Shown one piece after another: positions 1,388 to 6,227 of a stretch of 32,895 nt of DNA (position 1 is the first letter of the stretch; each line of letters begins with the position of its first letter). A program made the position numbers and the translations under genes. Origin of the DNA: Oscillospiraceae bacterium (GTDB lineage: Bacteria > Bacillota > Clostridia > Oscillospirales > Oscillospiraceae); assembly GCA_017887695.1 (NCBI GenBank), contig JAGHHM010000062.1, forward strand, positions 1 through 32,895, in the 5' to 3' direction. The notes under the pieces are model-generated. The model saw only the letters and a list, made by a program, of their open reading frames with translations, did not search any database and had not been told where the DNA came from.

Positions 1388-1637
1388 GGGCCTCACAGGC
1401 GGGACAAAACCTCGGACAGCTATCGCAGCCATTCGCCTGGGCAAACCACGGGCCTGTGGGATTACGCTTATTATTAGAACAGTATGCGCACCGATTCACC
1501 CCCTCTGCGTACTGCAAGTTCTCCTGATATATTCGATCTATCGGGCAATCCCGATAATTCAGAGCGACGAAACAGGTGGACTCGGTGTTGTACGGGCACC
1601 CGTTGTCGCAGAACCTACCGTTCATGTCAAAAATCAC
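1368..1637 (-). CDS. Small Cys-rich (zinc-ribbon-like) protein; start either GTG 1637 or ATG 1625
   Basis: 10 Cys in about 89 aa, several paired; start overlaps or abuts the stop of the upstream ADP-ribosylglycohydrolase gene. Confidence 0.7.
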   Translation of the reverse strand: MIFDMNGRFCDNGCPYNTESTCFVALNYRDCPIDRIYQENLQYAEGVNRCAYCSNNKRNPTGPWFAQANGCDSCPRFCPACEAPKPVNP

Positions 1638-2538
1638 TACCCTTCCGTCTGTTTGTTCTTGCCTGTTTTCCGTTCTCGTCGAATTTCGAGGTAAACCTGT
1701 GTATGATATCCTGCTCCTCCCGCAAGCATTGCGCTAAAACAGCACCCCGGATAACGGACAAAAAGCTATCCGGGATTCCGTAGTAAGCGCCAGCAACCCC
1801 TCCGGTTATAGCGGCCACAGTGTCGCTGTCTCCGCCTAGAGAAATGGCGTTTCTGATGGCGTCCTCAAAGCTGTACGATTCCAGGAACGCTTTTAGAGCA
1901 GGGGGCACAGTTCCCTGACAGGTCTCGTTGAACTTGTACATGGGACGAATGGCGTTTAATGTAAATCGCATATCATACCCATGCTTTTTGATGTACCTGC
2001 TGATCTCATGTCTCGTTGCTCCGGTTTTGGCAAGGTACACGCATCCTGCTGTTACGACGGCTCCGCGTATACCCTCCCGGTGGTCATGAGACGGGAGGGC
2101 GGACAGGCGACCTAACAGCTCAGCCTCTTCCAGAGACTCTGCAACCATGCCGCAGGGAGACGCTCGCATAGCGGATCCGTTACCGCAGCTTTTGTACGGG
2201 TGCTGCGTCTTCGCAAACAACCACTTGCTGAACCGCCCACCATATCCGGCATCCGGGTATGTGCGTCCAATACGCACCATCTCAAAGGTAAGATCTTCCA
2301 CAAACGCTTCCTCGCTCCTGTGCTCTGGCCAGTTCATGCACGCCTGAGCAACCGCCACGGTCATGTAGCTGTCATCCGTTAGAAAGCACCTTTTGTGGAA
2401 AAAAGGAAACTCCTTCGTCTTAATGTTGCGCCATTCATAGATTGAGCCAACAAAGTCCCCAATCATTGCTCCGTACATTCTCATCATCCTTTCCGTGATT
2501 TCTGGGTGGGTTCCTACTTCCATTATACGAAAAATCAC
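1627..2538 (-). CDS. ADP-ribosylglycohydrolase family protein (likely start at MYGAMIGDFVGS)
   Basis: MYGAMIGDFVGSIYEWRNIKTKEFPFF...LTDDSYMTVAVA...GNGSAMRASP...AISLGGDSDTVAAITGGVAGAYYG: the D/T-rich metal-binding motifs of the ARH/DraG fold. Confidence 0.93.
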   Translation of the reverse strand: MIFRIMEVGTHPEITERMMRMYGAMIGDFVGSIYEWRNIKTKEFPFFHKRCFLTDDSYMTVAVAQACMNWPEHRSEEAFVEDLTFEMVRIGRTYPDAGYGGRFSKWLFAKTQHPYKSCGNGSAMRASPCGMVAESLEEAELLGRLSALPSHDHREGIRGAVVTAGCVYLAKTGATRHEISRYIKKHGYDMRFTLNAIRPMYKFNETCQGTVPPALKAFLESYSFEDAIRNAISLGGDSDTVAAITGGVAGAYYGIPDSFLSVIRGAVLAQCLREEQDIIHRFTSKFDENGKQARTNRRKGSDF

Positions 2539-3953: not shown

Positions 3954-4289
3954 ATGGAAGGGGCCAACATTGCATACTACACTCCTGAATCACTGGCAAC
4001 CAAGTGGGGGTGCAGCAAATTCACCGTGTATGAACTTCTCCGAAAAGGAGCCCTGCGGGGGTTTAAGTTGGGGAGAGACTGGCGCATCACGGACGACGCA
4101 AGAATTGCCTATGAGCAGGACCCAACAAATTCTACCGCCAGCGTGTATAACCGAAAGCCGGCAGCCCGTAAAACCGATATGAGGATACTCCACGTTGACC
4201 ACGGAGCAACAGTCCAGGCTGTGGAATATCCCCGAAATCAGAAATGTTCGAGAGGAGAAGTTCACAAAAACTATTGCGCTCCCCGGTAG
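3954..4289 (+). CDS. Excisionase-like HTH DNA-binding protein
   Basis: YYTPESLATKWGCSKFTVYELLRKGALRGFKLGRDWRITDDARIAYE (MerR/HTH_17-like); SD AAGGGGGTG before ATG 3954. Confidence 0.85.
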   Translation: MEGANIAYYTPESLATKWGCSKFTVYELLRKGALRGFKLGRDWRITDDARIAYEQDPTNSTASVYNRKPAARKTDMRILHVDHGATVQAVEYPRNQKCSRGEVHKNYCAPR

Positions 4290-5661
4290 AGCTGGAATTC
4301 GAGACAGCGCATATGAGACGTTAATGGGGCGAGGGGCCTGGGACGGGACCGGGTACGGGGCCCCGGTGAGGCGAGACCGTAGGGCGGATATCGTGATCGG
4401 ATTGCCAGGCTCTGGCAAGAGTAGTACGGCGGTGAATCCCCTCTCCCAAAAACACGGCTCCCGCGTGATCGACAGCGATATGGCCAAAGAGCTTTTGCCG
4501 GAATACGACAACGGTCGGGGCGCGAAAATGGTCCATGAAGAGAGTTCTGCCGTAAGAGACCGGGTATACGATGAAACGGTAGCTCGCGGGGAGAATTTCG
4601 TTCTCGCAACTGTCGGGGCGGACATCGGTAAGATTGAAGGTTACATTGACGGTCTGCACGACGCCGGGTATACTGTTGGTCTGCACTACGTCGATGTTAC
4701 CCCGAAGCAGGCTGCGCAGCGAATGCTTTCCCGCTTTTTGCCGGATGGTACCCCCTCCGGCAGATATACACCGCCCGATGTATTGCTAAGCGCGGGTAAT
4801 TTTCCGCAGGACACATATAACAGACTTTTGACGAGAGGAGTTGCAGATGAGTACCAAAAGTACGACAACCGAAACACCCGAGCAGAAGATCGAGTCTCTC
4901 CGGAAAGTGATCGCGAACCTGGAGGATTCTCTGAACGCGCTGCGGATGTACGACCGGGAGAACGAGGCGCTGGTGGTATGGCCCGGGGAGGAGGATATGA
5001 CGGAAGAGCAACTGGAGAAACACTGGACGTTCCTCCGAGATCTGTACAGCCGGGAGCTGGAGAAAACTCTGTCAGAGCAAGATCAACTGACAAGAGCTAT
5101 GACAGATACGCCCCAGATGAGCCCCTTTTCGGACTAGAAGGGGGTATAACCAGAAAGGAACTGTCCCGGATTAACGGCCTGAAGTCGTTCCAGAAATGGT
5201 TTAAAGACGGAAATGGGGAGCTTCGAGACAGCAAAACCGGGCTTCCTGTTGTGGTGTTTCATGGAACCTCTACGGCGGGGTACACGAGATTCATCGAGCA
5301 GGCGAGTGGAGAACCCGGCTTTTGGTTTGCCGGGCATCCCAATACGTCCGCGTCTCCGTATTACTTAAACACAGAGGATCCTGATGCGAGGAGAAGGGCG
5401 TTTATCCCGGAGGCGTTGAAAACTTGGGATCAGGCAGACGAGTATGTGTTCCGCGTGTTCCCGAATCTCGAACTTTCCCAGGAAGTGGATGAATCTGGCA
5501 ATGATGTATTCGTAGTGTACGACGCAGATGATGGGGCGTATCTGGGGGAGTATACCGCAGACGACACTGGCTTGAAGAAGTTCGATAGGGAGCTCCAGGA
5601 TTTGTCCGCGATGGCGTGGGAGAAGCAGAATTTTGACGGTATTCCCTGCTTAACAGTATGA
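4195..5661 (+). CDS. Zeta-toxin-like P-loop kinase fused to a C-terminal ART-like domain (start uncertain: TTG 4195 or ATG 4324)
   Basis: ADIVIGLPGSGKSST Walker A, SRVIDSDMAKELLPEYD, EGYIDGLHDAGYTVGLHYVDVTPKQAAQRMLSRF (zeta family); then LPVVVFHGTSTAGYTRF...GFWFAGHP, resembling polyvalent-protein ART domains. Confidence 0.8.
   Translation: MTTEQQSRLWNIPEIRNVREEKFTKTIALPGRAGIRDSAYETLMGRGAWDGTGYGAPVRRDRRADIVIGLPGSGKSSTAVNPLSQKHGSRVIDSDMAKELLPEYDNGRGAKMVHEESSAVRDRVYDETVARGENFVLATVGADIGKIEGYIDGLHDAGYTVGLHYVDVTPKQAAQRMLSRFLPDGTPSGRYTPPDVLLSAGNFPQDTYNRLLTRGVADEYQKYDNRNTRAEDRVSPESDREPGGFSERAADVRPGERGAGGMARGGGYDGRATGETLDVPPRSVQPGAGENSVRARSTDKSYDRYAPDEPLFGLEGGITRKELSRINGLKSFQKWFKDGNGELRDSKTGLPVVVFHGTSTAGYTRFIEQASGEPGFWFAGHPNTSASPYYLNTEDPDARRRAFIPEALKTWDQADEYVFRVFPNLELSQEVDESGNDVFVVYDADDGAYLGEYTADDTGLKKFDRELQDLSAMAWEKQNFDGIPCLTV
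4847..5137 (+). CDS. Nested 96-aa protein overlapping the zeta-ART gene in the +1 frame
   Basis: Strong SD GAGAGGAG 6 nt before ATG 4847; helical acidic protein (MSTKSTTTETPEQKIESLRKVIANLEDSLNALRMYDRENEALVVWPGEEDMTEEQLEKHW...); G/C-rich third codon positions in this frame. Confidence 0.65.
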   Translation: MSTKSTTTETPEQKIESLRKVIANLEDSLNALRMYDRENEALVVWPGEEDMTEEQLEKHWTFLRDLYSRELEKTLSEQDQLTRAMTDTPQMSPFSD

Positions 5662-6227
5662 TCCACTCAGCTACCTACGCCAATATGAGTGACGCGGAAC
5701 GAGCGGAAGCTGTTGCCTATGCCTACGAGTACGCATCCGATTTGGCGAAGGTTCACACAACAAGTGCGTACTCTCCCTCGTCAAAATGGGTGGAAAAGCT
5801 CTACGACTATGAGCAAAGTGGGGGAGACGCTGCGGAGTATCTTATGCTACGCGGCATGGCCCAGGTAAGCGGAAAGAGCCTAACAGAAACCGTGCTCGAC
5901 TCGAACATAAGCGGTATCGGAGATACAGAGCGTGCGCAAATCATTTTCTTGGAAACCACGATGCCAGAGTCCTTTACGGACCCCTATACTAAAGGGCATG
6001 AGTACGTCCTGGATACAGATCAGCAAAGAGTGTTTTCGGAAACATACCTGGCTGATCTCCAGCGCAGTTTCCTAGAACTGACATCGTCTCAGGAATACGG
6101 CGCTGCGGATGTTGCGACCAGGTACGAATTGGTCAAAGACATGAAAGCGGATGTAAACGCTAGGACAAAGAGGGAGATTTCAAACTGGCTGTACAGCCAG
6201 GGGATCTCCCCGACGAAGAAGCCATAA
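5658..6227 (+). CDS. Hypothetical protein, possibly derived from a phage large polyvalent/virion protein
   Basis: ATGA overlap with upstream stop; MSDAERAEAVAYAYEYASDLAKV and helical repeats. Confidence 0.8.
   Translation: MIHSATYANMSDAERAEAVAYAYEYASDLAKVHTTSAYSPSSKWVEKLYDYEQSGGDAAEYLMLRGMAQVSGKSLTETVLDSNISGIGDTERAQIIFLETTMPESFTDPYTKGHEYVLDTDQQRVFSETYLADLQRSFLELTSSQEYGAADVATRYELVKDMKADVNARTKREISNWLYSQGISPTKKP

Follow-up and report, generated by a model that had tools for sequence, protein, structure and literature searches.

An apparent deletion relic of a MuF-type polyvalent protein gene, with a putative gene, a candidate zeta antidote, nested in its +1 frame

The reading frame ORF1, from an Oscillospiraceae bacterium, is the remnant of the interior of a giant phage polyvalent protein gene, and within it, in the +1 frame just behind a zeta kinase domain, lies a small second gene whose predicted amino acid sequence seems to have been held by selection. 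ORF1 is part of what we call the window, that is, the whole stretch of 32,895 nucleotides of DNA that was analysed. Our preferred reading, to which we would give a probability of roughly 0.4, is that the locus is a relic of a polyvalent gene whose nested +1 gene would most likely have neutralised zeta; the antidote role and the injection of the giant protein are steps that we infer. How does a cell that produces injected phage toxins survive making them? If our reading is true, an antidote carried inside the giant gene answers that question, and such an antidote would escape standard annotation, in which long overlaps on the same strand are rejected. To our knowledge, there are few reports, from bacteria and their mobile elements, of long nested genes on the same strand that are demonstrably under selection; among the results listed when open-licence papers were searched, no zeta or polyvalent example of a nested or overlapping antitoxin gene came up. 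The finding deserves follow-up as a lead to overprinting in polyvalent phage proteins. The features discussed below are collected in Table 1.

Table 1. Features of the polyvalent relic and of related loci; positions are those of the window unless a locus is named.
Feature	Position	Strand	Basis or remark
Excisionase-type HTH gene	3954..4289	+	HTH_17, TIGR01764, phrog_1840; runs into relic 5' edge
ORF1 (zeta kinase, disordered linker, truncated ART)	4195..5661	+	matches L006 residues 1281-1758 (polyvalent protein of 3221 aa) at 46% identity
Zeta_toxin kinase domain	4381..4875	+	Pfam PF06414; AF2; Foldseek
Walker A GLPGSGKSS, residues 69-77	4399..4425	+	sequence
Shine-Dalgarno-like GAGAGGAG	4833..4840	+	6 nt before nested ATG at 4847
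Nested gene, candidate zeta antidote, 96 aa	4847..5137	+	+1 frame relative to ORF1; +1 conservation vs L006
Frame-0 linker, residues 228-305	4876..5109	+	Gly/Arg/Ser-rich, predicted disordered; out-of-frame reading of nested gene
ART-PolyVal N-terminal fragment (FHGT...GFWF...YY)	5233..5364	+	catalytic-Asp strand absent
Deletion junction	5638..5660	.	L006 residues 1759-3033 missing, reading frame changes; tblastn/blastp of both ORFs vs L006
ORF2, C-terminal end of same polyvalent protein	5658..6227	+	L006 residues 3034-3220, 38% identity
L010 tandem nested ORFs	L010:4085-4366, L010:4385-4612	-	both with strong SD sites
L024 tandem nested ORFs	L024:5497-5691, L024:5821-6090	+	after zeta

It seems clear, judging from sequence and a predicted structure, that the N-terminal half of ORF1 encodes a true zeta-type kinase. 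A preliminary description of this DNA had said as much on seeing the Walker A motif, and Pfam, the structure model and the top PDB matches bear it out. The Zeta_toxin profile (PF06414) matches residues 63-226 with E=5.3e-17 and 62.4 bits, against a curated cut-off of 22.3, and the AF2 model of the domain has pLDDT values mostly of 77-96 over residues 32-170 and lower ones, about 46-92, over residues 170-224. The best PDB matches of this model in Foldseek are the zeta and PezT structures 1gvn, 3q8x and 2p5t (E 1e-8 to 1e-6). In Walker A, residues G69, P71, G74, K75, S76 and S77 are invariant in four homologs, as are D93, D95, R176, R180 and R190, which lie at the expected places and are candidates for the catalytic Asp and the two catalytic Arg. 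The epsilon/zeta and PezAT systems to which those structures belong resemble the window's zeta in kinase fold, in Walker A and apparently in conserved Asp and Arg positions, and they also have a small helical partner encoded next door, a part that the nested ORF would play here. They differ from the present case in that zeta of the window is internal to a larger protein, and in that the nested ORF is downstream, overlaps, and has no homology to epsilon or PezA. That no epsilon-type antitoxin is evident, as first stated, is correct by homology, but the conserved small ORF in another frame, which had been missed, is a candidate for the role.

What does the nested ORF encode? The predicted protein has an ordinary composition and is modelled by AF2 as a helical hairpin (pLDDT 83.5; helices 11-34 and 53-86); the frame-0 linker read from the same DNA has pLDDT values of 22-26, about 23, and is by prediction fully disordered. 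The closest relative of ORF1, on contig L006, has a homologous +1 ORF (L002:1914-2279, minus strand), whose start is at the same codon. Neither Pfam nor NCBIfam matched the nested protein above cut-off, a fold search of the helical hairpin gave no significant PDB match, and the phage collection contained no homolog. Sequence matches to PDB entries at E of about 0.04-1 were short and weak, and Pfam and PADLOC matches at about 0.003 were to unrelated, partly coiled-coil regions; all of these we judged to be compositional chance.

The scheme that we favour may be put as follows. In its intact form the gene would encode a giant protein, about 2,800-3,200 aa long, with the zeta kinase in the middle, and by analogy with the literature this protein would be carried in the virion and delivered by injection into the next host. 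The small gene would have a ribosome-binding site of its own, start just 3' of the kinase domain and run, in the +1 frame, across the disordered linker of frame 0, so that selection would hold the amino acid sequence of the nested protein and, in frame 0, just the absence of stop codons. In the phage-producing cell the nested helical protein would neutralise zeta, and the kinase would act only after injection, when it arrives without the antidote. A separate antitoxin gene beside zeta would break the long protein, and overprinting would avoid the break.

The antidote hypothesis is based on the position of the nested ORF right after zeta, the place where one would look for an antidote to it, on its size and helicity, on an analogy with AvrRxo1, and on the small ORFs that come after MuF toxin genes; an antidote is our best guess from these analogies. 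The gene for the zeta-like AvrRxo1 toxin is followed by a gene for a 98-aa antitoxin, Arc1 (PMC4938570). Toxin-then-antitoxin order, antitoxin size and helical content in that system all resemble those of zeta and the nested ORF, and a Foldseek search with the window's zeta domain has AvrRxo1-Arc1 structures among its matches. Against this, AvrRxo1 and Arc1 are encoded by separate genes that are not overprinted, AvrRxo1 is an NAD kinase from plant pathogens, and the nested protein shows no sign of the double-tyrosine motif of Arc1, KExFD...ExxYY. Small putative immunity ORFs follow 89% of MuF toxin genes (Jamet 2017, PMC5576092), and these adjoining ORFs are presumed to be immunity genes; here the small gene sits inside the giant gene, in the other frame, and the window copy lacks MuF_C. 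Zeta systems in general pair with proteins of about 80-100 aa, encoded downstream in AvrRxo1-Arc1 and upstream in the zeta loci of this bacterial family. In the latter, represented by L026-L031, a conserved ORF of about 90 aa (..YEFSLRQEVLLEKGASVLGDLFRYR..) lies upstream of the stand-alone zeta genes, overlaps them and has the look of their antitoxin. We considered whether the nested protein is homologous to these epsilon-like upstream ORFs and rejected this, as hhalign gave it a probability of 0.2%.

Might the nested gene be real and do something else? Some other role is nearly as likely as that of an antidote: the product could serve as a chaperone in assembly, help with packaging or act as an anti-defence peptide, overprinted on a linker that is permissive since it is disordered and tolerates such overprinting. 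Conservation in the +1 frame is silent on function, and the nested proteins of two distant loci, L010 and L024, look TnpV-like, unlike that of the window; we know of no link between TnpV and zeta. Such a role would not, however, lead one to expect a start site that coincides exactly with the end of the zeta domain, as it does in at least five loci, or a size and helical content that suit a zeta partner, as those of Arc1 do.

The question of how general the antidote arrangement might be is a related issue. A search of genome contigs with the whole ORF1 protein found nothing; a search with a zeta alignment yielded seven loci, and the phage and plasmid collections contained distant zeta domains only. 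Six further zeta-polyvalent loci (L007, L010, L019, L021, L022 and L024) were compared, and a +1 ORF follows zeta in all six, which is to be read knowing that such ORFs are expected fairly often given the frame-0 protein. In five loci (the window, L006, L007, L019 and L022) the same zeta-tail codons contain an SD-like site and an ATG; in L021 and L010 the two lie no more than about 30 nt from that position. We do not count L019 and L022 as independent support, as their nested ORFs begin where conservation lies in frame 0, and these ORFs may be there by chance. That polyvalent proteins with an internal zeta carry an overprinted +1 antidote in the linker that follows, and that the arrangement recurs with unrelated small proteins in elements of Clostridia and Bacteroidales, is a proposal that we make tentatively and with somewhat more doubt than we attach to our reading of the locus in the window. 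The nested ORFs of the different loci do not make one clear family.

Two of these distant polyvalent genes, L010 of Clostridiales and L024 of Bacteroidales, each have two tandem +1 ORFs after zeta, and the second of the two is weakly TnpV-like (E 2.7e-4 in L024,.075 in L010). This leaning suggests real but different small genes. When whole genomes were searched for the TnpV family, the nested ORF of L024 was the only one recovered, weakly (E 0.002, below cut-off), and that of L010 was not recovered.

Is there a nested gene at all? One could suppose that the Gly/Arg/Glu-rich composition of the linker opens the +1 frame by chance, and that the similarity to L006 is a shadow cast by conserved DNA or by an RNA element. 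It is true that +1 frames open over such a length are common given the frame-0 protein, that other long shadow ORFs exist in GC-rich giant genes, and that antisense shadow ORFs of zeta likewise yield tblastn matches. We accordingly rejected openness of the +1 frame as evidence, as it is not significant given frame-0 composition (p.12-.74 per locus). We nonetheless regard this explanation as unlikely, for reasons that come from a direct selection test on one pair of genomes, the window and L006. Differences at frame-0 codon positions 1, 2 and 3 are.35/.28/.65 in zeta and.43/.38/.67 in the ART segment; in the nested stretch they are.44/.36/.29, so that the codon-position pattern switches to that of the +1 frame exactly at the nested ORF (Fisher p 1.3e-8 for position 3). 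Over the ungapped nested block of 62 codons, +1 identity is 53%, compared with 33-34% expected from randomly placed substitutions (z +5.0; none of 20,000 simulations reached the +1 value), and frame-0 identity is 27-28%, below a chance level of 36-37% (z -2.1). A shadow should be less conserved than the frame that casts it. Five control blocks from zeta and ART have frame-0 z values of +5.0 to +7.9 and +1 values of at most 0.2, and none has the +1 codon-position pattern; as the controls behave in the opposite way, the frame switch is confined to the nested block.

Frame 0 itself has not been free to close. Both frames of the nested block are free of stops, and 83-86% of randomised sequences contain one; with the nested protein fixed and codon use normal, the probability that frame 0 would be open is.018 and.031 in the two members of the pair. 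We conclude from this one pair of genomes that the nested frame has been under amino acid selection and that frame 0 has been kept open. Translation of the putative nested gene is supported.

What sort of gene is the host of this nested frame? Relatives of the ORF1 protein are found in five of 301 genomes of the same family, the window itself being one of the five. The closest, from the Oscillospiraceae MAG record that contains contig L006, is a protein of 3221 aa with MuF_C (4e-19), Zeta and ART-PolyVal domains, and its gene adjoins a phage-type exonuclease gene; L007 encodes a 2816-aa protein with MuF_C (2e-18), near an endolysin. ORF2, just downstream of ORF1, matches the last 190 residues or so of the L006 protein. 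Since ORF1 and ORF2 both match this one protein, the window contains a deletion relic, and by this comparison the locus is what remains of a phage MuF-type polyvalent gene. Compared with L006, the window lacks about 1280 N-terminal and about 1275 internal residues, and the two pieces left are out of frame; only two fragments are present, MuF_C is absent, and the window copy may be dead. The start of ORF2 overlaps the stop of ORF1 as ATGA (window 5655-5661), an arrangement of the translational-coupling kind with no Shine-Dalgarno site before ORF2; lying at the deletion junction, the overlap is probably accidental.

The preliminary description had rightly picked out an uninterrupted frame of 488 codons with both domain signatures, had missed that this frame is a piece of a protein of 3221 aa, whose C-terminal end is in ORF2, and had thought the fusion of zeta and ART unusual. 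The fusion is not novel and as such is ordinary: Iyer 2017 (PMC5512222) described fusions of zeta kinases to MuF, and also ARTs, within polyvalent proteins, and, as in those proteins, zeta and ART occur here in one giant phage-encoded protein, with MuF_C in the window's relatives. Searching the 2017 paper by term, we found no mention of overlapping genes.

The ART half of the fusion stands as a truncated N-terminal fragment and fails as a full domain. The ART-PolyVal profile (PF18760) matches residues 347-390 over profile positions 2-45 of 140 and, at 24.1 bits, falls short of the curated cut-off of 31.2; L006 has a full domain at 42.4 bits, above the cut-off. The window shares the N-terminal FHGT...GFWF...YY segment of the family and lacks profile positions 46-140. 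Homology of ORF1 to the giant protein stops at about residue 481 of 488, and the missing part of the ART (profile 52-136, including the GYDG strand at L006 residue 1844) falls within the stretch deleted in the window. The short ART end that had been remarked on is therefore explained by loss of the strand with the catalytic Asp. Of the conserved ART residues proposed for checking, FHGT and YY are kept; the Asp strand is gone, so that the H-Y-D catalytic triad is incomplete. As that strand lies in the deleted part, a working ART in the window is improbable.

A functional stand-alone zeta-ART toxin of two domains, as first envisaged, has in its favour the single uninterrupted ORF with both signatures, but is very improbable, as ORF1 is the interior of a protein whose C-terminus is encoded just downstream and out of frame, its ART part lacks the core strands and the catalytic Asp and is modelled by AF2 with low confidence, its uncertain start is a TTG in frame 0 at the 5' edge where homology to the relative begins, and no genome of the same genus among those searched carries it.

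The surroundings of the relic are consistent with a decayed prophage or other element. An excisionase-type HTH gene and, on the opposite strand, a repressor-type HTH gene lie upstream of ORF1, and the flanking genes include one that we take, from its sequence, to be pheT, so that the element would lie between chromosomal genes such as this. No tRNA was found, and direct repeats examined as marks of its ends were not convincing. An ADP-ribosylglycohydrolase gene (window 1627-2538, minus strand; PF03747, 6e-32) lies near the ART fragment and divergent from it, with the repressor-type HTH gene between, and may be there by coincidence or as a member of the element.

One further zeta-like kinase was seen, in L011 (5008-6084, minus strand), where an apparent lipoprotein signal peptide (LLSGCG) comes before the kinase and a large, apparently secreted protein is encoded beside it. 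It is possible, going by these signals, that this is an extracellular kinase of the zeta family.
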